In this document: piece after piece, positions 12,988 through 41,178 of the stretch | Layout: each line of letters begins with the position of its first letter | Numbering within the stretch: the stretch's first letter is position 1 | Origin: Lachnospiraceae bacterium | GTDB lineage: Bacteria; Bacillota; Clostridia; Lachnospirales; Lachnospiraceae | Direction of reading: 5' to 3' | NCBI GenBank assembly: GCA_024692905.1 | Contig: JAILLY010000083.1 | Coordinates: 1-64,000, forward strand | DNA: 64,000 nt | Made by a program: the position numbers and the translations under genes | The notes under the pieces: model-generated | Told to the model about the DNA's origin: nothing | The model's database searches: none | The model's input: only the letters and a program-made list of their open reading frames with translations

Positions 12988-13470
12988 TCATTCTTCTTCG
13001 TCATCTTCGAGAGCTTCAACGTCTTTAAGTTCCCCTTCGACCTTCTCAACATACAGCTTTCCGTCAAGATGATCGATCTCATGGAGCATGGCGCGGGCCT
13101 TAAGCTCCGTCCCCTCGATCTCGACAGGCTCCATATCTTCGTTATACGCAAGGACCTTCGCATAATTCGGCCTGGTCACTATACCGCATTTTCCGGGAAC
13201 GCTTAAGCATCCTTCCGTCCCCGTCTGCTCACCCGAAGTCTCGAGCACCCTCGGATTTATCATAACGAACGGGCCTTCACCCACATCGATGACAACTATC
13301 CTCTTGAGTATCCCGACCTGCGGAGCGGCAAGTCCGACTCCCTCGGCATCATACATTGTTTCCTTCATATCCTCGATGAGTGTCCTGATCCTCGGTGTTA
13401 CTTCCTTTACCGGCTTGCACACCTTAGTCAGTACATCATCACCCATTGTCCTTATTGTCCTGAGTGCCAT
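12988..13470 (-). CDS. def: Peptide deformylase
   Basis: Removes the N-formyl group from new proteins. The 160-residue product has all three metal-site motifs: GVGLAAPQVG, EGCLS and HEIDH. The ATG at 13470 (MALRTIRTMG) follows AAAGGAATTATT; five more codons upstream are possible but lack a proper site. The C terminus extends past the catalytic core with an acidic tail (LEDDEEE). Confidence 0.96.
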   Translation of the reverse strand: MALRTIRTMGDDVLTKVCKPVKEVTPRIRTLIEDMKETMYDAEGVGLAAPQVGILKRIVVIDVGEGPFVMINPRVLETSGEQTGTEGCLSVPGKCGIVTRPNYAKVLAYNEDMEPVEIEGTELKARAMLHEIDHLDGKLYVEKVEGELKDVEALEDDEEE

Positions 13471-22211: not shown

Positions 22212-22224
22212 TTTTACCCTCCCT

Positions 22225-23841: not shown

Positions 23842-23879
23842 ACCGTTCCTCCTTAATTTCTTCTTACGGGCATGACAGG

Positions 23880-24947: not shown

Positions 24948-25038
24948 CTCATCATCCTCTTTCTTTCTATGGGCATCAGTTTCTCCGAAGGCGGCGGAGG
25001 AAAAGTGCCTGTTAATAGTTTCCAAAAAACCGTATTTT

Positions 25039-26541
25039 CTAAAGAGTCACTCCATCCTTGAATATCGCGATATCCCTGTATCCGTTCAGTTCCTGTCTGG
25101 TACATTTGCCCGAAGCGGTCAGCATGACCTGCTCAAACAGCATATGCGCGACTTCATCTCCTGTCTTAGTGCCGTCTGCTATCGCTCCGGCATTTATATC
25201 GATCCACTTTTCTTTTCTGGCATAAAGATCACTGTTGCTTGATATCCTGATCGTCGGAACCGGCGTGCCAAGCGGAGTACCGCGTCCCGTTGTGAACAGG
25301 ATCATATGTACGCCGGCTGCGGCAAGTGCGGTCGTTGATACGATATCATTGCCCGGACCCGACAGCAGCGTAAGCCCGCGTGACCTGACCGCTTCCCCGT
25401 ACTTAAGGACATCGGTCACCACAGCTCTCCCGCCCTTCTGAACACATCCGCATGACTTGTCTTCGAGAGTGGTTATGCCTCCCGCCTTGTTTCCGGGACT
25501 CGGGTTTTCATATACCACCTGGCCGTGATCTATAAAATATTTCTTGAAATCATTTATCATACCGACTGCTTTATCAAATATCTCCCTGTCAGCGCAGCGG
25601 TTAAGGAGCATTTCTTCGGCTCCGAACATCTCGGGGACCTCCGTAAGTACGGCAGAGCCTCCCATGGAAGTGATCATATCCGTGATCCTTCCCGCGACAG
25701 GGTTGGCAGTTATGCCCGATAGGCCGTCAGAACCGCCGCATTTAAGTCCTATGACAAGTTCTCCGGCATCCCTCTCGGTTCGTTTGAAGGTTCCCGCGTA
25801 TTCACTGAGCTCCATAAGCAGCTGCCTGCCTTCGGCAAGCTCATCATCCAAGTTCTGGCATACGAGGAATTTAACCCTGTCCTCATCCCATTCCTTAAGC
25901 TCCTCCTTAAACATTTCCATGGTAAGGTTTTCACAGCCCAAAGAAAGGACCAGTACCCCTCCGGCATTGGGATGCCGTACAAGTGAGGTGAGTATCTTCT
26001 TAGTGGCGGCAAGGTCATCCGAAAGCTGCGAACAGCCGTATGGATGAGTGAAACAGTAAAGACCGTCCACGGAACCCCTTACAAGATCCTGATTACCGGC
26101 GGCAAGTCTTTGCGCCACGGAATTGACACAACCCACGGTGGGGATTATCCATATCTCATTACGTATCCCGGTCTTACCGTCCGGACGTTTGTATCCCATA
26201 AAGGTCCGTTTAGGGAGCACGGGCAGTTCATTAACGGAAGGTTCATATTTATAATCCCCCTCCCCTGAAAGTGCTGTCCTTGTATTATGTGTATGAACAT
26301 GGCTGCCGCATTTTACCGGAGAGGTTGCGATACCTATCCTTGTACCGTATTTTATGACGGGCCCGCCGGCCTCTATATCCTTTATCGCGATCTTATGGCC
26401 CCTTGCAACGTCGTCTGTCAGCGTTACGCAGCTACCGCCAATATCCGTCTTTTCGCCCCGTTTCATATCACGCAGCGCAACCGCCACGTTATCGAGGGGA
26501 TTGATAATCACAGCGTCCAAAACATTCCTCCGGATCTTCAC
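25039..26541 (-). CDS. uxaA: Altronate dehydratase
   Basis: Fe-dependent dehydratase that converts D-altronate to 2-keto-3-deoxygluconate. The 500-residue product has the N-terminal SAF-like domain (to about residue 90, with CGSHVHTHN) and the long C-terminal domain beginning GYKRPDGKTGIRNEIWI, with HPYGCSQL, LGCENLTM and LKCGGSDGLSGITANP. It overlaps uxaB by 4 bases. Confidence 0.94.
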   Translation of the reverse strand: MKIRRNVLDAVIINPLDNVAVALRDMKRGEKTDIGGSCVTLTDDVARGHKIAIKDIEAGGPVIKYGTRIGIATSPVKCGSHVHTHNTRTALSGEGDYKYEPSVNELPVLPKRTFMGYKRPDGKTGIRNEIWIIPTVGCVNSVAQRLAAGNQDLVRGSVDGLYCFTHPYGCSQLSDDLAATKKILTSLVRHPNAGGVLVLSLGCENLTMEMFKEELKEWDEDRVKFLVCQNLDDELAEGRQLLMELSEYAGTFKRTERDAGELVIGLKCGGSDGLSGITANPVAGRITDMITSMGGSAVLTEVPEMFGAEEMLLNRCADREIFDKAVGMINDFKKYFIDHGQVVYENPSPGNKAGGITTLEDKSCGCVQKGGRAVVTDVLKYGEAVRSRGLTLLSGPGNDIVSTTALAAAGVHMILFTTGRGTPLGTPVPTIRISSNSDLYARKEKWIDINAGAIADGTKTGDEVAHMLFEQVMLTASGKCTRQELNGYRDIAIFKDGVTL

Positions 26542-28025
26542 TCTTGCCGGATAAGGCGCATGGCTTCATACATTCCCTTATCCGCGATCAGCTTAAGATA
26601 TCCTGTCACGGCTTCTTTAAAGCCCGCGATATCCTTAAGTGCACTGCCCCACATCTTCTCATTGCCGATGATCGCTTCGGCAAGCGTATCATCATCCGCG
26701 TCCTTAAGGCTTAAGAATTCCTCAAGTACATATTCATCATCCTTAATAAGGAAAGTATCGCTGCCTCTTAAACCCTTAAGCGCCCCGTCTTCCATCTCAT
26801 ATCCCGAATGATAGAAGCTTAGGTATGCCGCAAATGAAAAAGTCAGCATCTTAGGCAGGGTTCCCTTTGCCGCATGATATTCGATAAGCGTGGGCATGAC
26901 TCTTGCCTTCCATTTGGCTGTCGAATTGAGCGCGATGGATAAAAGTTCATGATCCATGAAGGGATTTAAGAACCTGTCCCTTACAGCGGCCGCGAAATCC
27001 TTAACTTCCTTTTCATCAAGATCGGAAAGGACCGGTATTATCTCATCGTTTACCGCAGCCATAAGATATCCGCTTATCACATCATCTTCCATACAGTCCC
27101 TGACGATATCCTTACCTGCAAGATAAGCACCCAGAGCCATGGATGTATGTGCTCCGTTAAGTATCCTGACCTTGCGTTTCTTATAAGGATCGACATTGCT
27201 TACGAAGGTGACCGGCAATGAAGCCCTGTCGGCAGGGAATTCATCACTTACAAAACCCGGCCCTTCTATCACCCAGGAGCCGAATACTTCGGCAGAATCA
27301 AGAAGTCCGTCCGAGTATCCGAAACTTTCGCAAAGAGCACCGGCCTCCGCTTTCGGATATCCCGGTACGATCCTGTCTACAAGGGTTGAGCAGAATATGT
27401 TCTCATCCCTTACCCACGCAGAAAAATCTGCGGGGAGTTTCCAAAGACTTATATATTCTTCCACACATTCCCTCAGCACATCACCGTTCCTGTCTATGAG
27501 TTCACAGGGAAGGATGATAAAGCCGGGAAGGCCTGAGTTATATCTTTCATAAAGGAACCGGGTGAGCTTTGCGGGAAAACCTGCAGGCGGTTCATCCGTA
27601 AGCGAACAGCCGGGGTCAAATGTAATGCCCGCCTCAGTCGTATTGCTCACGATGAACCTAAGTTCCGGATTATGCGCGCATTCCAAAAATCCCTTATGAT
27701 CGGTATACGGATTTATACATCTTGAAATGCATGAGATCACGCGTTTGATCTCCTGCTTCCTGCCGTCATTAACGCCGCGCAGAAGGAGCGTATAGAGGCC
27801 CTCCTGCTCATTTATGACATTGCCTACCCTGCCGCCCGAACGCGGCTTTACAACGACGACCTTACCGTTAAAGCCGGCTGTTTCATTCATGACATCAATG
27901 AAATGATCCGTAAAAGCCCTTAGAAAATTGCCTTCTCCGAACTGCAGGACCTTTTCCGGCGCATCCTTAAGGATGAACCCGTCATAACCCGATCTGTTAA
28001 GTGATTGATAATTTAATGTGTCCAA
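26538..28025 (-). CDS. uxaB: Tagaturonate reductase
   Basis: NADH-dependent reductase of the mannitol dehydrogenase superfamily that turns D-tagaturonate into D-altronate. The 495-residue protein has VLQFGEGNFLRAFTDHFID, PCELIDRNGD and KVRILNGAHTSMALGAYLAG, typical of UxaB. The start codon appears to be TTG at 28025, 6 bases after GAGGT; no ATG fits better. It lies 21 bases after the aldolase-VOC gene and is coupled to uxaA. Confidence 0.92.
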   Translation of the reverse strand: MDTLNYQSLNRSGYDGFILKDAPEKVLQFGEGNFLRAFTDHFIDVMNETAGFNGKVVVVKPRSGGRVGNVINEQEGLYTLLLRGVNDGRKQEIKRVISCISRCINPYTDHKGFLECAHNPELRFIVSNTTEAGITFDPGCSLTDEPPAGFPAKLTRFLYERYNSGLPGFIILPCELIDRNGDVLRECVEEYISLWKLPADFSAWVRDENIFCSTLVDRIVPGYPKAEAGALCESFGYSDGLLDSAEVFGSWVIEGPGFVSDEFPADRASLPVTFVSNVDPYKKRKVRILNGAHTSMALGAYLAGKDIVRDCMEDDVISGYLMAAVNDEIIPVLSDLDEKEVKDFAAAVRDRFLNPFMDHELLSIALNSTAKWKARVMPTLIEYHAAKGTLPKMLTFSFAAYLSFYHSGYEMEDGALKGLRGSDTFLIKDDEYVLEEFLSLKDADDDTLAEAIIGNEKMWGSALKDIAGFKEAVTGYLKLIADKGMYEAMRLIRQE

Positions 28026-28046
28026 TTTATACCTCTGTTTGAGATC

Positions 28047-29006
28047 TCATTTCCTCAAAAGATGTATGGCAAAGCCGCCGAATTCACCGTTTAAGTATAT
28101 GGATTTGGTGCCTTTGTCATCCCTGTTTGCGGATGCCTCCTCAAATGACGCGCCCGCATGTTTAAGATGGTATACCGCCCTGTCAACATCATTTGTGCCA
28201 ATGGCTATGTGACCGTGGGTACCCCTGCCCTTTTTCTTCATAATCTCGAATCCCGAGCCTGCAAATATCGAACTGTTTCCGGGCTTGTATTCAAGATCAA
28301 AAAGAGCGCTTATGGTCTTTGCGGTTGACTCTGCTTCAGCTTCATCCGCACTGTTTATTCCTATATGAACAAGCTCGAGCCCTAGCATGTTCTTAACCGC
28401 AGCCTTGCATATAGCCGTGATCTCATCCCATTTTTCACCTGCGATAAGATCCTTCTTTACCATCCATGTACCGCCGCAGGCAAGTACCTGGTGGAAGCTT
28501 AAGTAATCGGCAAGATTACCCGTATTTACTCCGCCCGTAGGCATCCATTTAAGGTTTCTGTAAGGTCCGGCAAGTGCCTTTAACTTGGCAACTCCGCCGT
28601 TCTGCTCTGCCGGGAAGAACTTGACAGCATCAAGACCCATGGCCATGGCCTGCTCCATTTCGCCAGCGGTTGCGGTTCCGGGGAGCATGCATACGCCCTT
28701 ATCAAGGACATATCTTACTATCTCGGGATTAAAGCCGGGACTTACCACGAAGCTTACACCGGCTGCTATGGCCCGGTCTGCCTGTTCCTTTGTAAGAACG
28801 GTCCCTGCTCCGAGTATCATCTCGGGAACCTCGGCCGCTATCGCCTTAATGGCTTCTTCGGCTGCTTCCGTCCTGAAAGTCACTTCCGCGACCGGAAGTC
28901 CTCCCTTTACAAGTGCCCTTGCAAGCGGGACCGCCTTCCCCGCATCGTCAATTGCTATAACGGGCACTATACCTATGTCATGGATCTTACTCAGTAACTC
29001 ATTCAC
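28047..29006 (-). CDS. eda: KDPG/KHG aldolase fused to a VOC (glyoxalase-like) domain
   Basis: Residues 1-208 are a class I KDPG aldolase that splits 2-keto-3-deoxy-6-phosphogluconate into pyruvate and glyceraldehyde-3-phosphate: E41 in EVTFRT, Schiff-base K129 in DAVKFFPAE, and PTGGVN at 156-161. Residues about 211-319 form a separate VOC domain (ELVHIGINS, HGHIAIGTNDVDRAV, a closing FGGFAIHLLRK) of unknown activity. Total 319 residues against about 210 for plain Eda. The start is GTG at 29006, 8 bases after GGAGGG; a nearby ATG is out of frame. The VOC part could be a lactoylglutathione-lyase-like enzyme, an epimerase or a regulatory module. Confidence 0.93.
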   Translation of the reverse strand: MNELLSKIHDIGIVPVIAIDDAGKAVPLARALVKGGLPVAEVTFRTEAAEEAIKAIAAEVPEMILGAGTVLTKEQADRAIAAGVSFVVSPGFNPEIVRYVLDKGVCMLPGTATAGEMEQAMAMGLDAVKFFPAEQNGGVAKLKALAGPYRNLKWMPTGGVNTGNLADYLSFHQVLACGGTWMVKKDLIAGEKWDEITAICKAAVKNMLGLELVHIGINSADEAEAESTAKTISALFDLEYKPGNSSIFAGSGFEIMKKKGRGTHGHIAIGTNDVDRAVYHLKHAGASFEEASANRDDKGTKSIYLNGEFGGFAIHLLRK

Positions 29007-29045
29007 TTTTTCATCCCTCCGAACCTAAATGAATCTGCCGTCTTA

Positions 29046-30479
29046 TCAGATACCGAAGTATCTCTTGGCGTTGTAATAGGATATACCGCTGACTATACGC
29101 TTAAGCGTTTCCTCGTCATCCGGATACTCTCCGTTCTCAACCCATCCGCCGATAAGGCTGCACATTATCCTCCTGAAATAATCATGTCTCGTATATGACA
29201 GGAATGAGCGCGAATCGGTGAGCATTCCTATGAAGTTGCCGAGAAGTCCGAGATTTGCAAGTGACTTCATCTGCTCTTCCATTCCGCTCTTATTGTCATT
29301 GAACCACCATGCGGGTCCCTGCTGGATCTTTCCGGGCACCTCAGACGACTGGAAGCATCCGAGTATGGTGCCTATCTGCTCGTTGTCGGCAGGGTTTAAT
29401 GAAAAGATGATCGTCTTGGGAAGTTCATCCGTCTTATCAAGCTCACTTAATAATCCGGCCACGCTTCCTCCGCATGTGTTCTGGGCGATCATATCATAGC
29501 CTGTATCGGGACCGAGAAGCTTATACATCCTCTCATTCATGTTCCTTAAGCACGAATAATGAAGTTCCATTGCGATACCGTGCTTATGGTATGCCTTTCC
29601 GAGTGCGATGAGTACGGCGGTCTGGTATCCTTCGGCTTCTTCAATGCCGACCTTCTCACCCTCCATCGCTTTTTTGAAGGCTGCATCGCAGACTTCCATA
29701 GGAAGCTTCCTGAACGGAACATAATCAAGTCCGTGATCAGAAGCAACACATCCGCAAGATGCGAAGAACTCAAGCCTCTTTGTGAGCGCATCGATGACAT
29801 CCTGAGTTGAATCAAGGCTGTCCTTTCCGACCGATGCCGCAAGCTTCATGATATAATCCTTGAAGCCGTCTTTTGTTATATTTATGGCCTTATCGGGCCT
29901 GAACGAAGGCCTTACAAGGAAATCAATGTTCTTATCCTGTGCTATCTTTTCATGCCATTCAAGACTGTCTATGGGATCGTCCGTGGTGCCGACATAGGCA
30001 ACGTTACTCTGCCTTATCAGTCCGCGTGCGCTCATATCGGGATCGTTCTTTAACCTGTCGTTGCATTTATCCCATATCCTTTCGGCGCTTGCGGGCGTTA
30101 ACGGCTCGTTTATCCCGAAGTATTTCTTAAGTTCAAGATGGCACCAGTGGTGCATCGGATTTCCGATCGCCATGCTTAAGGCATCCGCAAATCCCTTAAA
30201 CCTTTTAAGTTCATCCGACCTTCCGGTCACGAGCTCCTCCGGCATTCCGTGCGAACGCATGAGCCTCCACTTATAGTGGTCTCCGAAGCAGCTCCCGTCT
30301 TCCTGCCTGCCGCCGAACCATACATCACCGAGGCTTGCAAACCTTACATCGTCGTATATCTCCTTCGGAGACAGGTGACAATGATAATCGATGATCGGAA
30401 GATCCTCGGAATGATCGTGAAAGAGATGCCTTGCGGTATCGTTCACGAGTATAAAATCATCATCCATAAACTGTTTCAT
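29046..30479 (-). CDS. uxaC: Glucuronate (uronate) isomerase
   Basis: First step of the pathway: D-glucuronate to D-fructuronate and D-galacturonate to D-tagaturonate. The 477-residue amidohydrolase-fold protein has IDYHCHLSPKEI near the N terminus, HHWCHLELKKYFG, VGTTDDP and DSRSFLSYTRHDYFRR at the C terminus. It starts within a 4-base ATGA overlap with the YcxB-like gene. Confidence 0.96.
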   Translation of the reverse strand: MKQFMDDDFILVNDTARHLFHDHSEDLPIIDYHCHLSPKEIYDDVRFASLGDVWFGGRQEDGSCFGDHYKWRLMRSHGMPEELVTGRSDELKRFKGFADALSMAIGNPMHHWCHLELKKYFGINEPLTPASAERIWDKCNDRLKNDPDMSARGLIRQSNVAYVGTTDDPIDSLEWHEKIAQDKNIDFLVRPSFRPDKAINITKDGFKDYIMKLAASVGKDSLDSTQDVIDALTKRLEFFASCGCVASDHGLDYVPFRKLPMEVCDAAFKKAMEGEKVGIEEAEGYQTAVLIALGKAYHKHGIAMELHYSCLRNMNERMYKLLGPDTGYDMIAQNTCGGSVAGLLSELDKTDELPKTIIFSLNPADNEQIGTILGCFQSSEVPGKIQQGPAWWFNDNKSGMEEQMKSLANLGLLGNFIGMLTDSRSFLSYTRHDYFRRIMCSLIGGWVENGEYPDDEETLKRIVSGISYYNAKRYFGI

Positions 30480-30981: not shown

Positions 30982-32277
30982 TCAATGCCCGAAAAGGTTC
31001 GGAAGGGACATTGCTATTGCCGGGAAGAAGGTTACGAGCAGCAGCGTTGCTATCATGCAAAGATAGAACGGCAGGGTTGCCTTTACTACCTTCTCCATCT
31101 TGCAGTGTCCTACGGCGGAACCTATAAAGAGCACAGCTCCTACGGGAGGGGTCAGAAGACCGATACCGCAGTTAAGTACCATTATTATTCCGAACTGCAC
31201 CGGATGGATACCGATGGAAGTAGCTATCGGAAGAAGTATGGGTGTTGCAATAAGGATGATCGGCGCCATATCCATGATACATCCGAGTACAAGGAGGATA
31301 AGGTCGATCAGAAGCGCTATCACGTAGGGATTTGATGACATACCGAGTATCGCGCGGCTTGCCATATCCGGAACATGAAGCCTGGTAAGACAGAATCCGA
31401 AGATCGCCGAAGTCGATATAAGGATAAGTACTATTGCCAGGGTATCAACACACTTGTCAAGAACATTCCAGACACCCTTCCAGTCAAGACCCTTATATAT
31501 GAATACGGAAACGATAAGGCTGTATATAACGGCGATAGCTGCCGATTCCGTAGCGGTGAAAACACCCGCAACGACACCGATAACGACTATGATGACTGCC
31601 GCCAGCGCCCAGAATGACTGAACGAACTGCTTGCACATACGGATAAAAGAGAACTTGTCGCCCTTGGGATATTTACGCTTCTTTGAGATGATAAACGATC
31701 CTATCATAAGCGATAAGGCAAGCAGGGCTCCGGGAATATAGCCGGCAAGGAAAAGAGCTCCGACCGACACACCGCCTGCACTCATCGCATAGATGACCAT
31801 GTTATGGCTGGGCGGTACAAGAAGTCCTTCACATGAGGAAGTGATCGTGACTGCGGTTGAAAAATCATCATCATATCCCTGATCTACCATCATGGGGATC
31901 ATGATGGATCCTATTGAAGCCGTATCCGCTGCGGCGGATCCGGAGATGCCGCCGAAGAAATATGATGCAACGATATTAACCATTGCCATTCCGCCTGTCA
32001 TCCATCCAACGATGGAATCCGCAAGCGCTATGAGTTTTTCGGATATACCTCCCGTTCCCATCAATACACCCATGGTGATAAAGAAAGGAACCGCCATCAG
32101 TGAAAATGAACTTATTCCCTTGACCATATACTGGCATATGGTCGCAAGTGACTGTCCCTGTACCAGAAGACAAAGTACCGATGAAAAACCTACGGCAAAT
32201 GCGATCGGGAAACGGAGCAGAACCATGAGCAGAAAGCTACCGAGCAATACGATTATCGCTAACGTCTGAACACTCAT
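30982..32277 (-). CDS. dctM: TRAP transporter large permease DctM
   Basis: The 431-residue, about 12-helix channel subunit of a tripartite ATP-independent importer. Opening residues FLLMVLLRFPIAFAVGFSSV and the GGISGSAAADTASIGSIMIPMM block are family signatures. It overlaps dctQ by one base (TAATG). With DctP and DctQ it should import a sugar acid driven by an ion gradient; the downstream genes point to glucuronate and galacturonate. Confidence 0.95.
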   Translation of the reverse strand: MSVQTLAIIVLLGSFLLMVLLRFPIAFAVGFSSVLCLLVQGQSLATICQYMVKGISSFSLMAVPFFITMGVLMGTGGISEKLIALADSIVGWMTGGMAMVNIVASYFFGGISGSAAADTASIGSIMIPMMVDQGYDDDFSTAVTITSSCEGLLVPPSHNMVIYAMSAGGVSVGALFLAGYIPGALLALSLMIGSFIISKKRKYPKGDKFSFIRMCKQFVQSFWALAAVIIVVIGVVAGVFTATESAAIAVIYSLIVSVFIYKGLDWKGVWNVLDKCVDTLAIVLILISTSAIFGFCLTRLHVPDMASRAILGMSSNPYVIALLIDLILLVLGCIMDMAPIILIATPILLPIATSIGIHPVQFGIIMVLNCGIGLLTPPVGAVLFIGSAVGHCKMEKVVKATLPFYLCMIATLLLVTFFPAIAMSLPNLFGH

Positions 32278-32888
32278 TACTGATCACCCTCCTTTCCTTT
32301 CATTTCTTTTTCCTCTTCTTCTGCCTTCTTAATGGCAGCTGTTATCTCATCGTTCTTATCTTCAACGGCTCCTGCCATATATTCCGTCTTGAGTACTATA
32401 GACTTGATATGTGCATAGAGCGTTTCGAGTTCGAATACTATCATCGCGACACCTGCAACCGGTACCGGAAGATACATCCAGATCCTTGACAGCCAGGGCA
32501 TCGATACGTATGTACCCTTGGAGCCTATTGTCGCGGCATACTGGCTTCCGACCACGAGCATTATCGCCGCAAATGTCAGGACCATGAGGTCACCGAGCAG
32601 ATCGAGAATCTTTAAAACGTTCTTGGGAAGAAATCTGTCAAATGCGGTCATTCTTATATGAGCTCCCCGCCTTATCGCAAGAGCGGCGGACAGCACTGCC
32701 ATATAAGACATGAGCGTAAGGATAACTTCTTCGCTCCATGAAGGGTCGGGGATGAATGATATATAACGTCCCATGACCGACATGGTTGTGATCAGTATGT
32801 CTGCGATAAGGAATATCTTACAGACGAATAAGACCACCTTGTAAACCCCGTCATATACAGGTTTGATCCTGTCTAATTTTTCAAACAT
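32277..32888 (-). CDS. dctQ: TRAP transporter small permease DctQ
   Basis: A 203-residue four-helix membrane subunit with the characteristic PSWSEEVILTLMSYMAVLSAALAIRRGAHIRM block in the middle of the protein. The cytoplasmic C terminus is highly charged (EEEEKEMKGKEGD), a longer tail than usual. It sits between dctP, from which it is separated by a 12-bp hairpin, and dctM. Confidence 0.92.
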   Translation of the reverse strand: MFEKLDRIKPVYDGVYKVVLFVCKIFLIADILITTMSVMGRYISFIPDPSWSEEVILTLMSYMAVLSAALAIRRGAHIRMTAFDRFLPKNVLKILDLLGDLMVLTFAAIMLVVGSQYAATIGSKGTYVSMPWLSRIWMYLPVPVAGVAMIVFELETLYAHIKSIVLKTEYMAGAVEDKNDEITAAIKKAEEEEKEMKGKEGDQ

Positions 32889-32902
32889 AGTACCTACCTT
32901 CT

Positions 32903-32938
32903 TTTAAAATCGGGGCACTGCACTCCGTGCAGTGCCCC
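32903..32938 (-). terminator. Intercistronic hairpin between dctP and dctQ
   Basis: A 12-bp perfect GC-rich stem (32912-32923 with 32927-32938) with a 3-base loop, followed on the minus strand by ATTTTAAAAG. The U tract is short, so it probably terminates only part of the transcripts or protects the dctP mRNA end, giving more binding protein than permease. Confidence 0.65.
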
Positions 32939-32955
32939 ATGATCCAGCCATGTTA

Positions 32956-32985
32956 CAATTCCAATTCCAATTACAATTCCAATTT
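32956..32985. repeat. Five-copy CAATTC-like hexamer repeat after dctP
   Basis: Five tandem hexamers (CAATTC, CAATTC, CAATTA, CAATTC, CAATTT) lie in the gap between the dctP stop (33003) and the dctP/dctQ hairpin. They contain no reading frame in common with a gene. Such a short array can change length by slippage and would shift the spacing between stop codon and hairpin. Confidence 0.85.
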
Positions 32986-33002
32986 ATAGGGAGAGTTCCT
33001 TC

Positions 33003-34145
33003 TTACTGAAGGTCAAGAAGCTGCTGGTAGAGAGCCTTAAGCTCGTCTGTGTTAACCTGCTCCTCGATAACCTTAGCAACAGCATCCTGCCAAGGCTTGA
33101 TATCGGTAACTTCGATGACATTGCATCCCTCATCCTTAAGCTGCTGAAGAACTTCTGCTTCCTTGTCGGCTGAGATCTCCTTGCAGTACTGGCCTGCAAG
33201 CTTACCGGCTTCCATCATTGCCTCCTGCTGAGCGGGAGTCATCTTATTCCATGCGGAATCGGTGATAACAACTTCGATAGCACCAAGAGTATGTCCGTCA
33301 AGGATTATGGTGTTTGCAACCTCAGGGAATGCGTTTGACTTATAGTTTGCGATAGGCTGCTCAGCTGCGTCTACAACGCCGGTCTGAAGTGCTGAATAAA
33401 GCTCGCCGAATGCTACAACTGTAGGAGAAGCACCAAGACCTTCAACAAGACCGTTCATAACAGGGTCGTTGGAAACACGGATCTTCATGCCTGCAAGATC
33501 CTCGATACCCTTGATTTCCTTACCTGTAAAGAAGTGACGGAAGCCTTCCTCACCGTAGAAGAGGCCGCGTACGCCTGCGCCGTTCTTCTGGGGCTCCTCA
33601 AGGAATTCCTGTGCAAGATCGCTCTGTGCGAAATTCCAGAAATGTTCCCTGCTTACGAATGTATAAGGAAGTGAAAGAAGCAGTGACTTCGTTCCGCCGT
33701 AGCTCGTAAGTGAGAATGCAGAGATACGGGAGATATCACAGATACCGTTGTCTGCAAGCATACCGTCAAGTATGTCGTTCTCTGAACCGAGAACACCGCC
33801 TGCCTGAAGGTCTATCTCGATAGAACCGCCTGAAAGCCTCTCAACCTCTTCCTTGAACTTGGAGTCGGTCATACCAACGATGGTGTCAAGAGGGTTAACC
33901 TCTGCCATAACGAAAGTAACCTTGGGATCGTTTGCTGCCGCATACTCAGGTGCTTCTTCCTTGGGCTCTTCAGCAGGTGCTTCTTCCTTGGGAGCTTCTT
34001 CCTTAGGCTCCTCAGCGGGTGCTGCTTCCTGCGCCGGTGCTGCGGGTGCAGCTGCACCGGTATCCGCGCTCTGCAGACCACATGCACTGAGCATCGAAGC
34101 GATCATTGTTGATGCCAATACGATTGCTAATACTTTCCTCTTCAT
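33003..34145 (-). CDS. dctP: TRAP transporter substrate-binding lipoprotein DctP (uronate type)
   Basis: Extracytoplasmic receptor of the TRAP importer. The 380-residue product has a lipoprotein signal ending LSAC (Cys22), a Pro/Glu/Lys-rich spacer with PAEEPKEEAP repeats (about 30-68), and the DctP domain with GLFYGEEGFRHFFTGK, GMKIRVSNDPVMNG and GVVDAAEQPIANY, including the conserved substrate-carboxylate Arg in KIRVS. It is the first gene of the uronate operon, directly downstream of an operator-rich promoter. A terminator-like hairpin follows. Other sugar acids cannot be excluded, but uxaC-uxuAB-uxaAB in the same transcript favour hexuronates. Confidence 0.93.
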   Translation of the reverse strand: MKRKVLAIVLASTMIASMLSACGLQSADTGAAAPAAPAQEAAPAEEPKEEAPKEEAPAEEPKEEAPEYAAANDPKVTFVMAEVNPLDTIVGMTDSKFKEEVERLSGGSIEIDLQAGGVLGSENDILDGMLADNGICDISRISAFSLTSYGGTKSLLLSLPYTFVSREHFWNFAQSDLAQEFLEEPQKNGAGVRGLFYGEEGFRHFFTGKEIKGIEDLAGMKIRVSNDPVMNGLVEGLGASPTVVAFGELYSALQTGVVDAAEQPIANYKSNAFPEVANTIILDGHTLGAIEVVITDSAWNKMTPAQQEAMMEAGKLAGQYCKEISADKEAEVLQQLKDEGCNVIEVTDIKPWQDAVAKVIEEQVNTDELKALYQQLLDLQ

Positions 34146-34194: not shown

Positions 34195-34206
34195 CTAACA
34201 TGTTAA
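34195..34206. promoter_or_regulatory. Operator site A (CTAACATGTTAA) downstream of the dctP start site
   Basis: Near-palindromic 12-mer, one mismatch from CTAACATGTTAG. It lies about +4 to +15 relative to the predicted dctP transcription start. Only the dctP promoter has this third site. Confidence 0.6.
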
Positions 34207-34215
34207 TACAATAAG

Positions 34216-34245
34216 ACTATAACACCCTAACATGTCAGATGTAAA
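34216..34245 (-). promoter_or_regulatory. Promoter of the uronate operon (dctP)
   Basis: Minus strand: TTTACA (34245-34240), 18-base spacer, TATAGT (34221-34216). Operator B fills the spacer. The box spacing and operator placement are the same as at the gntR promoter (39971-40000). Confidence 0.7.
34227..34238. promoter_or_regulatory. Operator site B (CTAACATGTCAG) in the dctP promoter spacer
   Basis: 12-mer with one mismatch from a perfect CTAACATGTTAG palindrome; its reverse complement is identical to site D at 39982-39993. It lies between -35 and -10, a classic repressor position, and its centre is 43 bp from site C. Confidence 0.7.
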
Positions 34246-34269
34246 TATGTAAAAATATACATAAAACAA

Positions 34270-34281
34270 CTAACATTTTAG
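34270..34281. promoter_or_regulatory. Operator site C (CTAACATTTTAG) upstream of dctP
   Basis: Identical to site E at 40025-40036, with the same 43-bp centre-to-centre distance to the spacer site. The flanking bases (GTTGTxTTATGT on the minus strand) are also shared with the gntR promoter. Probably a second binding site for the same regulator. Confidence 0.7.
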
Positions 34282-34322
34282 TTAAAAATGACAGTACCGG
34301 GGATCGGACATGACATCCTGCG

Positions 34323-37019
34323 TCAGTCGAGCTTATCAAGCCTTACCGCACATACCTTGTATTCCGGTATCCTTGCGTACTTGTCAAGGGCGGCATTGGT
34401 AAGCACGTTCGCATTTCCGTCCGGGAAGTGGAAAGGCATCCATGTCTCACCCGGGGATACCTTATCACCGACCCTGGCCGTGGTGACCAGAGCCCCGCGC
34501 CTCGATGACACTCTTATTAGTTCGCCGTCACGTATATCCAGACGGCCGGCATCCTCTTTATTCATCTCGATAAAGGAATGTCCTTCCCTCTCCATGAGTC
34601 CCGGTGTCCTGCCGGTCATCGCACGGGTATTATAGTGATACAGTATACGTCCGGTCATGAGTATCATGGGATACTCTTCATCGGGCAGTTCCGCGCTCGG
34701 GATATATCTTGCGGGATAGAACCATCCGAGACCTCTTGTAAAGGTTCCGACATGCATTATGGGTGTTCCGGGATGCTTCCTTCCGGTACACGGCCACTGA
34801 AGACCGTTCTTTTCACGGTCGAGCCTTCTGTGGCTTATACCGGCAAAGCTCGGGGTCACGGACGCGATCTCGTCCATGATCTCATCCGGAGTGAGATAAG
34901 GCTGGTCATATCCCATATGGTTCATAAGATCTATAAATATGCTGGTATCGGCACGCATCTCTCCTTCGAGCCTTACCGCTCTCCTGACTCTCTGGACCCG
35001 GCGCTCGGTATTTGAGAACGTTCCTTCCTTTTCGGCATAACTGATACCCGGAAGCACAACATCGGCAAGTTTCGCGGTCTCTGTCATGAACAGATCGTCC
35101 ACAACAAGAAAATCAAGGCTCTTAAGTGCCTTCTTAACATGATTCTGATCGGCATCCGTTACCACAGGATCCTCTCCGAATATGAACAGGCCGCGTATCT
35201 CCTTCCTTATCGCAGCACTGAAAACATCCGTCGCGAACACACCGGTCTTCTTATTAAGAGTCACTCCCCAGGCCTTTTCGAATTTCTCCATTACAGCCGG
35301 ATCGGTCACCTTCTGGTATCCCGGGAAATGTCCGGGCATGGCACCCATGTCGCAGGCGCCCTGAACATTATTCTGCCCGCGCAGCGGATTGACTCCGCAG
35401 CCGCTTCGTCCGAGCTTGCCTACCATCATTGCAAGGTTGCTCATCGACATGACACCTTCGGTGCCGGTGGAATGTTCGGTAACTCCGAGGCAGTATATGA
35501 TCGGAGCCTTTGCAGCCTTGGCATACATAAGAGCGGCCTCCCTTAAATGATCGGGATCTATATGACAGATCTCTCCGACCTTTTCGGGCGTGTACTCCAT
35601 GACTATCTCCTTAAGCTCCTCAAAGCCCTCGGTACGTGTCTTTATAAATTCCTCATCACACAGGCCTTCGTTTATGATAACGTTCATCATACCGTTTGCG
35701 AATGCCACGTTGGTTCCAGGTTTTATCTTAAGATGTACATCCGCCTGTTTTGACAGACCGATATCACGCGGATCGACCACTATAAGACGGGTTCCCCTGG
35801 CAACGGCCTGACGTATCTGCATACCGACAACGGGGTGAGCTTCCTCGGGATTGGAACCCACGAGCATGATGACATCAACATCCCCGGTTATATCCCCTAT
35901 GGGATTCGTCATGGCACCGGATCCAAGCGTCATCGCAAGTCCGTGCACCGATGCCGAATGGCATACCCTTGCACAGTTATCCACGTTATTTGTCCCGAAT
36001 GCGCAGCGCACCATCTTCTGGAACATATAGATATCTTCATTGGTCGAGCGCGAGCAGGCAAAGCCCGCAAGTGCATCGGCCCCGTATTCATCCTTTATCT
36101 TGAGAAGCCTTTCCGCGATCAGGTTCATCGCCTGCTCCCAGGTGGCCTGTTTAAACTCTCCGGTTGCTTTGTCCTTTATCATGGGATGTTTCAGACGGTC
36201 CGGCGAATGCACGAAATTAAAGGATCCGAACCTTCCCTTGACGCACAGCATTCCCTTATTTGAGGGGCCGTTTGCCGGTTCCGTATCCACGATCACGTTA
36301 TTCTTTACTATAAGATAATACTGGCATCCGGTCGCACAGTGCGGGCAGGTCGTAAGGACCTTCTCCACACGTCCGGGCTGGTATTTTTTCTTATTCTTGG
36401 CAATGAGCGCCCCGGTGGGACAGGCCTGTGCACAGTTACCGCAGGATTCACAGGCAGTGCTCTTCCAGTCGGGGCCGAAAGGAGCATCGATAAGGGTCCG
36501 CGTGCCGAGCTTGGCATTATGGAGGACTCCGTTTCCCGTAACCTTGTTGCAAACGCTGACGCAGCGCTGGCAGTTTATGCACAGTTCGGGATAATAAGTC
36601 AGGAAAGGATTCTCCTTTTTGGCGGGTATATGCGCTTCATGGGGCTCATATACCGAACCGGTTATCTCATAATCGTTGGCAAGATCCTGGAGCTTGCAGC
36701 TGCCGGATTTCGCACAGGAAAAACATCTGACATCATGATTTGCAAGAAGAAGATTAAGCACCTGTCTCCTGCTGTTCGTGACTCTCTCGGTGCAGGTGTT
36801 TATCACCATTCCTTCCTTAATGCGGGTATTGCATGAAGTCACAAGATGCTCATGTCCCTCCACTTCGACCACGCACATCTTGCATGCACCGACCTCATTT
36901 ACATCCTTAAGATAGCATAAGGTCGGTATATCGATATTCAAAAGACGGGCTGCCTCGAGTATGGTCAGGCTGTCGTCAACGGTAAGCTTATTTCCGTCTA
37001 TGGTGATATTTATCTTCAT
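34323..37019 (-). CDS. fdhA: Formate dehydrogenase alpha subunit (Mo/W-bisMGD, cysteine type, NuoG-like N terminus)
   Basis: An 898-residue iron-sulfur molybdoenzyme. Order: [2Fe-2S] ferredoxin domain (C35, C46, C49, C63), NuoG-type Cys/His cluster (C99-C108), two [4Fe-4S] sets (CINCQRC from C147 and CESCGNCAQAC from C190), the catalytic-domain [4Fe-4S] CPHCATGC (from C225), then the bisMGD domains. The active-site block CARVCHSASVHG has Cys353-His354; the codon is TGC, so it is the cysteine and not the selenocysteine form. The start at 37019 is in a 4-base overlap with the upstream fusion gene. No fdhD or fdhE is nearby. It should oxidise formate and pass electrons to the partner flavoprotein. 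Confidence 0.88.
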   Translation of the reverse strand: MKINITIDGNKLTVDDSLTILEAARLLNIDIPTLCYLKDVNEVGACKMCVVEVEGHEHLVTSCNTRIKEGMVINTCTERVTNSRRQVLNLLLANHDVRCFSCAKSGSCKLQDLANDYEITGSVYEPHEAHIPAKKENPFLTYYPELCINCQRCVSVCNKVTGNGVLHNAKLGTRTLIDAPFGPDWKSTACESCGNCAQACPTGALIAKNKKKYQPGRVEKVLTTCPHCATGCQYYLIVKNNVIVDTEPANGPSNKGMLCVKGRFGSFNFVHSPDRLKHPMIKDKATGEFKQATWEQAMNLIAERLLKIKDEYGADALAGFACSRSTNEDIYMFQKMVRCAFGTNNVDNCARVCHSASVHGLAMTLGSGAMTNPIGDITGDVDVIMLVGSNPEEAHPVVGMQIRQAVARGTRLIVVDPRDIGLSKQADVHLKIKPGTNVAFANGMMNVIINEGLCDEEFIKTRTEGFEELKEIVMEYTPEKVGEICHIDPDHLREAALMYAKAAKAPIIYCLGVTEHSTGTEGVMSMSNLAMMVGKLGRSGCGVNPLRGQNNVQGACDMGAMPGHFPGYQKVTDPAVMEKFEKAWGVTLNKKTGVFATDVFSAAIRKEIRGLFIFGEDPVVTDADQNHVKKALKSLDFLVVDDLFMTETAKLADVVLPGISYAEKEGTFSNTERRVQRVRRAVRLEGEMRADTSIFIDLMNHMGYDQPYLTPDEIMDEIASVTPSFAGISHRRLDREKNGLQWPCTGRKHPGTPIMHVGTFTRGLGWFYPARYIPSAELPDEEYPMILMTGRILYHYNTRAMTGRTPGLMEREGHSFIEMNKEDAGRLDIRDGELIRVSSRRGALVTTARVGDKVSPGETWMPFHFPDGNANVLTNAALDKYARIPEYKVCAVRLDKLD

Positions 37020-38848
37020 ACTCTGCCCCCTTCCAGCGTGCCGCATCCGTAATGATCGCACCTTAAGCATTTACCGCATTCCTGCATGGCTTCGTCATAT
37101 GACATTCCGTTCTCGACCGGTCCGAAATCCTTTTTGCGTTCTCTTGCGGACCTGTCCGTCAGGTGAACACGGCCGATATGTGTCCTGTCATTTTCCCTCG
37201 GTACAGGATAGTCTATCGAGCCGAGGATCTTATGATGATACCCCAGAAATTCATCAATATTGACGGCGGCCACCTTGCCGGCTCCTATGGCCTTAATGAC
37301 GGTTGAAGGGCCGAAGACACAGTCACCCCCGGCAAATATCTTCTGATATGATTTGAGCCTTGCGCTCTCGGTGGTATTAAACGTCTTCCTCTTGGGATTT
37401 ACGTCGAAGCTTGCAAACGGTTCGGAATAGATATCCTGACCGACGGCCATAAGCACTATGTCGCAGGGATGTACTCTCTTTTGTTCATTTGCCGGCCTTA
37501 CCGTAGGCTTGCCGTTACGGTGTACGGACGTTATCTGGGGCTGCATCCCGAGGCCCGTGACTCTGTTGTTTTCATCCACCTCAACGGAATCGGGTGCGTT
37601 CATGGTAAGAAGCTCGACTCCTTCCTCTATGGCACCCTGCACCTCGGAGGGGAGTGCTGTCATATCCACCTGTCTCCTGCGGTAGATGATCGTAACCTCG
37701 TCTGCCTTACAGCGCACGGCGCTTCTTGCCGCGTCCATCGCAACGTTTCCGCCGCCGACAACGACCACCCTCTTGCCGCTGTAATCGGGTATATTGCCCC
37801 TGCCGATCTCACCGAGTACTTCAACGGCGGAATATACTCCGTCCGCATGTGCTCCGGTTATATCAACCGTCCTTCCAAGCTGGGCTCCTATCGCTATATA
37901 TACCGCGTCGTATTCATTTACAAGCTGTTCCATCGTTATATCTTCGGGAATGCTTACGTTATTCCTGACTTCTATGTTCCCGGTCGAAAGGATGGCATTT
38001 ATATCCTGGTCGAGACGTTCCTTTGGCAGCCTGTAATTGGGAATGCCGTATCTTAACATGCCCCCGAGCTTCTCCCTTCCTTCAAACACTATGACCTTAT
38101 GGCCCATAAGAGAAAGGTAGTAGGCCGCAGTAAGTCCCGAGGGGCCGCCTCCTATTACCGCAACCCTCTTACCGGTGGCGACATTGCATTTGGGTACCTT
38201 AACCTTGTCGGCGGAAACCTGATCAACGGCAAACTTCTTAAGCCCCCTTATGTTTACGGGACTGTCAAGAAGATCTCTTCTGCACTTTTCCTCACAGGGA
38301 TGCTCGCAAATGAACGCGCATGCGGTCGGGAAAGGATTGTCAAGACGGATACAGTTTATCGCATCCGCATATCTGTGTTCGCCGATAAGGGCGATGTAAT
38401 TGGGTATATCGACATGGGCAGGACAATATGAAACACAGGGGATCTTCTGACCCACATCGGCCTGGCACCTGTGTTCGTTTATATGACTTATGTACTCGTC
38501 CCTGAACAGATCGATACTCTCAAGCACAACACGGGCCGCTTCATATCCTATGGCACAGTCAGCCGTATCCTCAATGATATGACACAGATCCGTCATGGCT
38601 TCGAGGGTCTTCATATCGGCCTTGCCTTCGACAATATCCTTCATCATCAGCTCAACCTGGTAGAGTCCGTCACGGCAGGGCACACATTTGCCGCAGGTCT
38701 GGCTTCTTGCACTCTGAAGGAAGGATAACTGTACCGCTATCGGGCACACGCCGGGCGGATTGCCCTTTACGCGCTTGACAAAACGGTCAAGAAACTTCAT
38801 CGTCTTTTCGTTCATCTCGTTTTTGTAAATGACTGTCCGCTTATACAT
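37016..38848 (-). CDS. NuoF-type Fe-S domain fused to GltD-like NAD(P)H/FAD oxidoreductase, FDH partner
   Basis: A 610-residue fusion. Residues 30-120 match only the C-terminal [4Fe-4S] part of NuoF (CGKCVPC at 52-58 and C98 in TADCAIGYEAA), without its NADH/FMN domain. Residues about 130-225 are the Cys-rich GltD/DPD N-terminal domain (C138, C142, C177, C181, C185, C189). After that come an FAD motif (VIGGGPSGLTAA, 231-242) and an NAD(P) motif (VVVVGGGNVAMDAARSA). A short Cys cluster (CGKCLRCDHYGC) closes the protein. The start ATG follows GAGGT. Coupled to fdhA by ATGA, so it is the likely electron-transfer subunit to NAD(P). NAD versus NADP cannot be told. Confidence 0.85.
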   Translation of the reverse strand: MYKRTVIYKNEMNEKTMKFLDRFVKRVKGNPPGVCPIAVQLSFLQSARSQTCGKCVPCRDGLYQVELMMKDIVEGKADMKTLEAMTDLCHIIEDTADCAIGYEAARVVLESIDLFRDEYISHINEHRCQADVGQKIPCVSYCPAHVDIPNYIALIGEHRYADAINCIRLDNPFPTACAFICEHPCEEKCRRDLLDSPVNIRGLKKFAVDQVSADKVKVPKCNVATGKRVAVIGGGPSGLTAAYYLSLMGHKVIVFEGREKLGGMLRYGIPNYRLPKERLDQDINAILSTGNIEVRNNVSIPEDITMEQLVNEYDAVYIAIGAQLGRTVDITGAHADGVYSAVEVLGEIGRGNIPDYSGKRVVVVGGGNVAMDAARSAVRCKADEVTIIYRRRQVDMTALPSEVQGAIEEGVELLTMNAPDSVEVDENNRVTGLGMQPQITSVHRNGKPTVRPANEQKRVHPCDIVLMAVGQDIYSEPFASFDVNPKRKTFNTTESARLKSYQKIFAGGDCVFGPSTVIKAIGAGKVAAVNIDEFLGYHHKILGSIDYPVPRENDRTHIGRVHLTDRSARERKKDFGPVENGMSYDEAMQECGKCLRCDHYGCGTLEGGRV

Positions 38849-38894
38849 ATGTTTACCTCGCTTATTGGAGTATCATCTATCTGAAAACATTCTG

Positions 38895-39218
38895 TTACAG
38901 AAAATCCTCCCTCTTTGGAGTGAAGATATCAAGGAGTTTGACCCTGGTAATGCATTCTATGCCGTGAAGAACGTTTGGCCCTACTATATAGGTATCTCCG
39001 GCACTTAATACCGTATCCTCCCTGCCTTCCTCCTTATAGATCAAGGAGCCTTCGACCACATATCCGATCTGCTCGTGAGGATGCCGGTGCATGGCGCCGC
39101 CCGAACCTTTCTCAAACAAAAGTTCAACATTCATTATATTGTCGCTGTATGCCAGGACCTTTCTTAAGACCCCTCCGCCGATATCCTTGTATTCTTTTTC
39201 ATTATTGTATACATGCAT
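38895..39218 (-). CDS. kdgF: KdgF-like cupin (unsaturated uronate linearisation)
   Basis: A 107-residue single cupin. The metal motif is HRHPHEQIGYVVEG (His44, His46, Gln/Glu) with a later PNVLHGIE histidine, as in KdgF, which opens 4,5-unsaturated galacturonate from pectin or alginate breakdown to 5-keto-4-deoxyuronate. It lies 28 bases after gntR. The usual next enzymes KduI and KduD are not in the window. A general cupin role is possible, but context in a uronate regulon favours KdgF. Confidence 0.75.
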   Translation of the reverse strand: MHVYNNEKEYKDIGGGVLRKVLAYSDNIMNVELLFEKGSGGAMHRHPHEQIGYVVEGSLIYKEEGREDTVLSAGDTYIVGPNVLHGIECITRVKLLDIFTPKREDFL

Positions 39219-39246
39219 GGCAGCTGTCCTCCGTTATATTATCCCG

Positions 39247-39918
39247 TCAGTCCATGAACAGTTCGGGTTTACTCTTCATAAGTTCCTCTATATCACTCTT
39301 AAAATAGGATATATGCTTATACAGAAGCGTCCTGTAGCTCTCCTTGTCCTTCTGCTCGATGCACTTTATCAGCTGGCTGTGTGCATTAAGGGTCCTGTCT
39401 TTATTGACATTCTCCATATCTATCAGAAGACGGATCCTGTTATAGTGTGTCATCGAATTGGACGCAAGCTCGGATGCGAGCTTCTGGCCGGCAACTATAT
39501 AGGCAACGGTATGGAACTCATTATCACACATCAGATATTCGTATATCATACCGGGATCCCTCATCTTGGCCGCAACCCTGCGCATGTTCTCGTTAAATTC
39601 CCTCATGGTCTCGATATCAGCCTCCGTGACATGTTCAAACAGTCCGTCGACCACACCCATCTCAAGAGTCCTTCTGACAAACCATTCCTGCTCGGCACGG
39701 TCAACATCTATCTTGGATATGACCGATCCCGACTGAGGGTATATGTCAATAAGTGCTTCCCTTTCAAGCTTGACTATCGCTTCACGCGCCGGCGTCCTGC
39801 TGACATTGTAACGTTCGGCTATCTTCGCGGCGGATACGGGTTCACCCGGCATGAGCTCAAGAGTCATGATATCTCTTTTCAGGTTCTCATATGTCTGCAT
39901 GTTTAACGAATTATTCAT
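39247..39918 (-). CDS. GntR/FadR-family (FCD) regulator of uronate use
   Basis: A 223-residue repressor-type protein: N-terminal winged helix (about 6-75) with VSAAKIAERYNVSRTPAREAIVKLEREALI, then an FCD ligand domain with metal-type histidines (EFHTVAYI, HSQLIKCIE, KHISYF). The ATG follows AGGAGAGGATAT. It is the first gene of gntR-kdgF-fdh and is preceded by operators D and E, so it is probably autoregulated and also controls dctP, whose promoter carries the same sites. Closest functional analogues are UxuR and ExuR; the inducer may be a hexuronate, fructuronate or tagaturonate. Confidence 0.88.
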   Translation of the reverse strand: MNNSLNMQTYENLKRDIMTLELMPGEPVSAAKIAERYNVSRTPAREAIVKLEREALIDIYPQSGSVISKIDVDRAEQEWFVRRTLEMGVVDGLFEHVTEADIETMREFNENMRRVAAKMRDPGMIYEYLMCDNEFHTVAYIVAGQKLASELASNSMTHYNRIRLLIDMENVNKDRTLNAHSQLIKCIEQKDKESYRTLLYKHISYFKSDIEELMKSKPELFMD

Positions 39919-39970
39919 ATATCCTCTCCTTTACCTTCCTTTCTCCCACAGTAAAAGTACGGTTATAGTT

Positions 39971-40000
39971 AATATATCACGCTGACATGTTAGTGGTAAA
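39971..40000 (-). promoter_or_regulatory. Promoter of gntR-kdgF-fdh operon
   Basis: Minus strand: TTTACC (40000-39995), 18-base spacer, TATATT (39976-39971). Operator D occupies the spacer. Architecture matches the dctP promoter base for base in spacing. Confidence 0.7.
39982..39993. promoter_or_regulatory. Operator site D (CTGACATGTTAG) in the gntR promoter spacer
   Basis: The exact reverse complement of site B at the dctP promoter, in the same place relative to the -35 and -10 boxes. Confidence 0.7.
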
Positions 40001-40024
40001 GACGGAATATTTCACATAATACAA

Positions 40025-40036
40025 CTAACATTTTAG
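40025..40036. promoter_or_regulatory. Operator site E (CTAACATTTTAG) upstream of gntR
   Basis: Identical to site C, 43 bp from site D between centres. It lies in the divergent region and also overlaps the possible promoter of the plus-strand lipoprotein gene, so the regulator could affect both directions. Confidence 0.7.
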
Positions 40037-40125
40037 TGAAAGATGACGATAAGTGATTTTGTTTACAAACCGTATTACGTTATGTTATTTTTTAAATGTA
40101 GTATTTTATCATTGGGTAATATGCC

Positions 40126-41172: not shown

Positions 41173-41178
41173 GAAGAC

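Follow-up and report, generated by a model that had tools for sequence, protein, structure and literature searches.

A phased operator array, probably read by an FCD-type GntR regulator, at the formate dehydrogenase and uronate operons of a Lachnospiraceae bacterium

The uronate genes of Escherichia coli are acted upon by the regulators ExuR and UxuR. As far as the available parts of the cited papers go, both are GntR repressors of the FadR subfamily (PMC4494728), which also includes UxaR (TM0439) of Thermotoga maritima (PMC4494728), a GntR-family regulator whose targets are pectin, galacturonate and glucuronate genes (PMC3750489). UxaR governs a uronate regulon (kdgA-kdgK-uxuB-uxuA) with several operators, which in some species comprises the transport system uxaPQM; the sugar regulators studied alongside it are autoregulated, and UxaR itself was unresponsive to the uronates tried (PMC3750489). 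NanR of E. coli is likewise a GntR repressor, of which several dimers bind to a repeated operator (PMC8012715).

Here, we describe a locus in a stretch of 64,000 nucleotides from a Lachnospiraceae bacterium, referred to as the window, in which an FCD-type GntR gene, a formate dehydrogenase (FDH) and a set of uronate genes lie behind two promoters of the same build. Judged from its sequence, the system works like the UxaR and ExuR/UxuR uronate regulons, yet its regulator is no ExuR orthologue by the NCBIfam cut-off (26.2 bits for ExuR vs. a cut-off of 396). UxaR differs in its own 17-nt motif, in belonging to another phylum and in that no FDH is named for it in the available text (PMC3750489); the window regulator and chain 3sxy, which is TM0439 according to the accessible part of PMC4494728, match weakly (E 6e-8). 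ExuR and UxuR are set apart by that same cut-off and by the polarity of the window site, which is not GT-AC (PMC4494728, accessible part). NanR acts on GGTATA repeats and in response to sialic acid (PMC8012715, accessible part), whereas the window has separate palindromes phased by three and four helical turns. As for the enzyme, the molybdenum- or tungsten-dependent formate dehydrogenase alpha subunit of PDB entry 6tg9 is a clear relative of the window FdhA over its length (E 1e-224); unlike in FDHs of this type, the partner in the window is GltD/NuoF-like and the pair is placed under a putative uronate regulator. Literature searches on GntR and uronates, as well as on FDH and either uronates or pectin, gave no link between FDH and a uronate regulator in the titles and abstract openings among the matches listed, in which subscription titles are sparse.

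The genes of interest form two runs on the minus strand. The first starts with gntR (39247..39918; Pfam GntR 1e-14, FCD 2.4e-14), followed by a KdgF-like cupin (38895..39218), a protein combining a NuoF-type 4Fe-4S domain with a GltD/Nfn-like NAD(P)H oxidoreductase (37016..38848; Pfam NADH_4Fe-4S, Fer4_20, Pyr_redox_2), and fdhA (34323..37070), which joins a NuoG-like N-terminus to a molybdopterin formate dehydrogenase alpha subunit in its cysteine form (TIGR01591). The gaps between these four genes are 28, 46 and -55 bases, which places FDH within the gntR operon; an ATG 51 bases downstream of the annotated fdhA start (37019) is a possible better start. The cupin matches solved KdgF and pectin degradation proteins (5fpz/5fpx at residues 3-107, 5fq0 at residues 4-107; E 1e-19 to 2e-17) and is predicted to be KdgF-like in activity, that is, in the ring opening of unsaturated uronates. 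A gap of 177 bases separates fdhA from the second run, which consists of the TRAP transporter genes dctP-dctQ-dctM (30982..34145; Pfam DctP, DctQ, DctM), a small hypothetical gene, a block of uronate pathway genes (21186..30479) and a GH115 gene of the alpha-glucuronidase family (18204..21167; Pfam Glyco_hydro_115 1.4e-122). The block holds uxaC, kdgA, a tagaturonate reductase gene, an altronate dehydratase-like gene, uxuA, a fructuronate reductase-like gene and a KDG kinase-like gene; the names altronate dehydratase, fructuronate reductase and KDG kinase rest on NCBIfam scores that stay under the cut-off, on Pfam and on context. Neighbours within the block are at most 39 bases apart, and GH115 continues the run, 18 bases after the KDG kinase-like gene. 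Throughout both runs, gaps do not exceed 46 bases except for the 114 bases between dctP and dctQ. Matches to a promoter consensus within the first run (9 of 12 positions at 39549 and 39230 on the minus strand, between the gntR start and FDH; 10 of 12 at 34658 within fdhA) belong to a total of 13 against a shuffle mean of 9.4 (sd 3.2), which is close to chance; internal promoters in the gntR-FDH run are possible. The KDPG aldolase of the window (28047-29006) is extended at its C-terminus by a segment that weakly matches a glyoxalase-like domain (E 0.0009); its homologues in the related loci L031, L033 and L034 are of similar length (320-328 aa), and L035 has a short form of 212 aa.

Both runs are preceded by promoters with an 18-base spacer, TTTACA-18-TATAGT for dctP (hexamers within 34216..34245, minus strand) and TTTACC-18-TATATT with a TG preceding the -10 hexamer for gntR (39971..40000, minus strand). 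An earlier note on this DNA had reported a 12-mer in each spacer, and the coordinates hold on checking: the dctP spacer contains CTGACATGTTAG in gene direction (CTAACATGTCAG on the forward strand; 34227..34238), and the gntR spacer its reverse complement, CTAACATGTCAG in gene direction (CTGACATGTTAG in forward-strand letters; 39982..39993). The 12-mer can be refined to the palindrome CTAACATGTTAG. As had also been noted, an identical element CTAACATTTTAG, reading CTAAAATGTTAG in gene direction, lies upstream of both (34270..34281 for dctP, 40025..40036 for gntR, minus strand), in each case 43 bp from the spacer site, start to start, and the additional dctP site, TTAACATGTTAG in gene direction (CTAACATGTTAA on the forward strand), was found at 34195..34206. 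Relative to predicted transcription starts at about 34209 (dctP) and 39964 (gntR), inferred from the hexamers, the sites are centred at about +8.5 (dctP start site), -23.5 (both spacer sites) and -66.5 (both upstream elements). The spacings of 32 and 43 bp correspond to about three and four helical turns.

Other features surround these promoters. Between the dctP upstream element and the -35 hexamer lies an inverted repeat rich in A and T (34246-34263; TATGTATATTTTTACATA in gene direction); imperfect versions are present at dctP in the close relatives RGIG7959 (L031) and UBA3641 (L032), and the gntR promoters keep its TATGT half only. Divergently from gntR, the window carries a gene for a Peripla_BP_4 sugar-binding protein and a GGDEF gene (40126-42795, plus strand), and the same pair is divergent from gntR in L031 (6074-8857) and L032 (5931-8814). 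The gntR upstream element lies roughly midway between the gntR promoter and a predicted divergent promoter at 40062-40091; the pair may belong to the regulon, which would link uronates with c-di-GMP.

The operator layout shared by the two promoters is exact and far beyond chance. Two promoter regions of 220 bp contain five sites with at most one mismatch to CTAACATGTTAG, where 2000 dinucleotide shuffles average 0.0025, and share seven exact 12-mers, where 5000 shuffles average 0.02 (at least one in 84 of them). When the genome (2.6 Mb, 92% complete) was scanned with one mismatch allowed, as the earlier note had proposed, exact sites proved to be confined to gntR and dctP, so that the motif is not a frequent one spread over genes unrelated to uronates: the degenerate 12-mer CTRACATKTYAG occurs exactly at four places, all in these two promoters. 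One-mismatch matches number 18 on the forward and 15 on the reverse strand, below the 19 and 30 of a reversed-pattern control. A wider regulon in this genome was considered and rejected, since 17 of the 19 other one-mismatch places have no partner site at 20-60 bp and the other two, on contig C129 and outside that partner check, lie inside open reading frames. Of these places, L014 and L022 fall where an open frame begins, L008 falls between genes and L017 close to the end of a contig; some of these four may be promoters with a single site. Within the window, matches with two mismatches are as frequent as expected (20 vs. 22.6), and only near-exact copies are distinctive. The pair of sites 43 bp apart, searched with up to three mismatches, is restricted within its own genome to the gntR and dctP promoters; across the family sample it appears in 14 of 299 genomes, with 0-1 mismatch in its own genome only, and its occurrence in the 13 others (2-3 mismatches) is attributed to chance, the reversed control hitting about as many (12 genomes). 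Additional matches in the relatives G299 and G300 are fewer than those of the reversed-pattern control; of three inspected, L172 and L175 are inside open frames and L177 is at a frame end, 53 bases before the next frame, where a real single-site promoter is possible.

The protein encoded by gntR comprises 223 residues and scores 54.4 bits for GntR (cut-off 27) and 54.3 bits for FCD (cut-off 24.3), and is thus a FadR/FCD member. Many FCD domains hold residues of the metal-ligand type, one Asp and three His; D132, H136, H180 and H202, candidate metal binders of this protein, are unchanged in all 11 homologues aligned, and so is the helix-turn-helix stretch VSRTPAREA. At an E-value of 1e-40, the regulator is present in eight of the 299 sampled family genomes, its own included, and a contig search added RGIG7959 (81% identical) and UBA3641 (78%). 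In eight of the nine other genomes with this GntR (33-81% identical), CTAACATGTTAG with at most one mismatch stands next to gntR, dctP or uronate genes, in intergenic places of the loci L031, L032, L034, L035, L037, L038, L039 and L040. The content of these loci varies. At L035, the operator heads an operon of KduI, a short-chain reductase (KduD-like by context), kdgA, a cupin and gntR, which extends the theme to uronates from pectin; at L040, the site precedes a lipoprotein-type start and then DctP-like sequence, as judged by eye. In G008 (L039), the palindrome is found upstream of a gene for an AraC-type regulator and of a uxuA homologue (8072-8106 and 13357-13368). UBA3641 has a second GntR inside a uronate operon (L033, 8893-9669; 69% identical), for which no operator was found within 220 bases upstream.

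In 12 of the 15 relative promoters (all except two of L039 and that of L040), 13 sites with at most one mismatch were counted in nine promoters, compared to a shuffle mean of 0.0135; two of the 12, those of L036 and of the second UBA3641 copy, were known beforehand to be site-free, and L031 and L032, as near relatives of the window, do not count as fully independent. The third promoter without a one-mismatch site belongs to UBA3641 gntR; each of the three copies there has two mismatches. Eight promoters, chosen for this layout (dctP of the window, L031, L032, L035 and L037; gntR of the window, L031 and L032), have the operator 0-1 base after a TTTAC-type -35, filling a spacer of 17-18 bases. 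All five of these dctP promoters have another copy 32-34 bp further downstream, where it covers the predicted start; weaker copies are located 33 bp downstream in the gntR promoters of L031 and L032, and the window gntR has none. By eye, four operons further removed from the window (L034, L035, L037 and L038) each show a single GTAACATGTTAG close after a -10-like box. On these comparisons, the spacer and start sites are taken as the core of the operator array. Recent duplication of a promoter as the sole cause of the shared layout was rejected, because operators recur with different flanks in distant genera (L034, L035, L037, L038); a longer match around the upstream element of the two window promoters is compatible with an old duplication.

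Genomes without the regulator provide the complementary view. Homologues of dctP at an E-value of 1e-60 amount to 25 loci in 23 of the 299 genomes. The operator precedes dctP in three of the four loci from genomes with this GntR (one of the three is the window; the miss is in G205) and is absent from all 21 loci of genomes without it at E 1e-40, within 1.5 kb on each side or up to the contig end (Fisher p ~0.002, or 0.01 minus the window, with related genomes counted as independent). Within the genus itself, only G193 was sampled; it has neither such a GntR (E 1e-40) nor such a dctP (E 1e-60), which speaks against conservation, though it has a uxaC and an FDH. Upstream of uxaC homologues, no site was found within 400 bases in 30 loci (three with GntR, 27 without), one from each of 30 of the 146 matching genomes, which says little, as uxaC is an internal operon gene in the window. 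That FDH operons bear the operator on their own was likewise rejected: 34 other genomes have an FdhA at E 1e-200, and in the 15 of them whose FDH loci were examined it is absent at up to one mismatch, a two-mismatch site in L102 being left uncounted.

The operators thus stand at the regulator's own promoter and at that of the pathway and are rare elsewhere, as for an autoregulated local repressor. As the site tracks this GntR and is absent from the compared loci of genomes without it, the FCD-type protein is, as candidate owner of the operators, very probably the one that binds the palindrome. The earlier proposal of a single GntR controlling both operons is supported by the co-occurrence across genomes, by the site-free sets without the regulator, by the spacing kept in two close relatives and by the lack of exact sites in the rest of the genome. 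The palindrome could instead belong to a different transcription factor encoded elsewhere, with the GntR as a mere neighbour, for which we see a small chance. Such a factor would fit L036 (G190), where a 51% identical GntR has no site nearby, and the polarity of the site, CTAAC-AT-GTTAG, whose AC-N2-GT order is unlike the FadR-subfamily consensus NyGTM-N0-1-KACNy, with GT before AC (PMC4494728, accessible part). The 19.8 kb covered at L036 contain no match to the uronate genes of the window. Against it, the site follows the GntR across genera, and none of the 21 dctP-homologue loci in genomes lacking the regulator has it; the survey of relatives' loci for regulators compared them with the window's own genes only. 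Exceptions to the GT-AC consensus, e.g. BioR, exist (PMC4494728, accessible part), so the polarity speaks against a typical motif, not against membership of the FadR subfamily.

The upstream element is less readily assigned to the GntR. It is seen in the clade of the window only, where it departs from the palindrome in the same way in six of six promoters (CTAAAATG) and always in one orientation; this restriction and this constancy make its role less certain, and it could serve as an auxiliary operator or have another function. Its spacing of 43-44 bp keeps the helical phase and five of its six copies are within two mismatches of the palindrome, both of which favour a further GntR site. A UP-type element or a site of another factor, conserved along with the operator, is a less favoured but serious option. 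It would fit the fixed orientation of CTAAAATGTTAG and its conserved flanks (TTTMAC, and TATGT downstream), the loss of the right half in L031 gntR and the lack of the element in the more distant dctP promoters of L035 and L037. The earlier note had allowed for looping or side-by-side contact between the two sites. Looping is unproven because the upstream site is clade-specific and imperfect; 43 bp would be short for a free loop, and side-by-side contact is the better guess.

Formate dehydrogenase is the unusual member of the putative regulon. FdhA reaches 845.9 bits for TIGR01591 (Fdh-alpha; cut-off 666.25), and its active site, ..NCARVCHSAS.., has the cysteine that such enzymes carry as an alternative to selenocysteine. 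In 28 of the 29 loci outside its own genome (all but L086), the position is Cys in 23 and TGA in five, L076, L077, L082, L083 and L084, the latter as expected of selenocysteine forms. The solved relatives of the partner protein include NfnA and glutamate synthase small chains; its GGGNVAMDAARSA together with an RRR stretch resembles NADPH-binding GltD-type domains, of which we take this combination to be a signature, and hints at NADPH as the cofactor. The genome has a single FdhA (E 1e-200), a single FdhD and a single PFL-like gene, so that formate can probably be made and the enzyme matured; an in-frame TGA in FdhD, considered as selenocysteine, turned out to be merely the end of the match.

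The tie between FDH and uronate catabolism that the earlier note had drawn from the window stands in part. In two of the three members of the close group, the window and UBA3641, FDH with a GltD/NuoF-like partner is part of the gntR-kdgF operon; the exception is RGIG7959, which keeps the regulator and the operators, has dctP directly after the cupin and carries its FDH (64% identical) elsewhere. In UBA3641, the operon FDH is 89% identical and in the same gene order, and a second FDH (66%) is located elsewhere; an oppositely directed short-chain dehydrogenase gene (L032 14532-15398; KduD-like by context) sits between its fdhA and the dctP promoter. The pair was thus either gained once and then lost or gained twice. 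Four FDH loci scanned with their neighbours (L088, L089, L090, L094) are all near molybdenum-cofactor or fdhD genes, which, set beside the operon FDH of the window and UBA3641, points to recruitment of FDH into the uronate regulon, plausibly for redox balance. At E 1e-200, FdhA is found in 35 of the 299 family genomes, and the window genome is the only one among the eight with the GntR. It is conceivable, if rather unlikely, that FDH was caught in the operon by a chance rearrangement and that uronate control of it is metabolically meaningless, as its presence in only two of the three close-group members and the absence of an FdhA match (E 1e-200) in the seven other GntR genomes of the family sample would allow. 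This is countered by the gene order and identity retained in UBA3641 despite its second FDH, and by the window genome having no other FdhA at that threshold, so that expression would hang on the gntR promoter or internal ones.

Formate can be obtained from the O-methyl group of 4-O-methylglucuronate. With GH115, which would release this compound, in the same gene run as the uronate genes, FDH might serve to dispose of that formate; no demethylase was recognised among the window proteins scanned (part of its ORFs), and we regard this explanation as very improbable. The reading preferred here is that formate from pyruvate formate-lyase would be oxidised by FDH to yield NAD(P)H. In the accessible part of PMC7000372, the conversion of galacturonate to pyruvate is redox-cofactor neutral, and in Ca. 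Galacturonibacter, also a member of the Lachnospiraceae, the FDH transcript is very low on galacturonate. FDH is accordingly not generally needed on uronates, and the redox reading is plausible without being general. We propose that FDH is co-induced because the breakdown of uronates to pyruvate gives no spare reductant; operation in reverse, with CO2 as electron sink, is possible.

Taken together, we consider it likely that the GntR is an autoregulated repressor acting on CTAACATGTTAG and co-inducing the FDH and uronate operons for redox reasons. GntR dimers on the spacer and start sites would exclude RNA polymerase, with the upstream copy contributing side-by-side contacts instead of a free loop. 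A uronate or a uronate-derived acid, as candidate effector, would bind to the FCD domain and release the protein, whereupon the gntR-kdgF-FDH and the TRAP/uronate/GH115 operons would be induced jointly; the effector is a guess, since none of the uronates tried elicited a response from Thermotoga UxaR. More tentatively, and at slightly less than even chance, a Lachnospiraceae branch of FCD regulators reads the reversed AC-N2-GT order in a phased series of sites, and in one clade it has captured the sole FDH detected in the genome as a substrate-specific redox module.

In the rumen and the gut, formate is important both as a fermentation product and in cross-feeding. The findings supply a specific, testable operator and a putative regulon for an uncharacterised regulator of the use of uronates from plant fibre (glucuronoxylan, pectin) in Lachnospiraceae, and the operator polarity would widen the rules of DNA recognition in the FadR subfamily. 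If the reading is true, the supply of NAD(P)H from formate would be wired to the arrival of oxidised sugars. This would link a diet signal to formate turnover and suggests that the cell would re-tune its electron balance on sugar acids; if formate is burnt only on uronates, this would bear on which members of such communities are formate makers and which are formate eaters.
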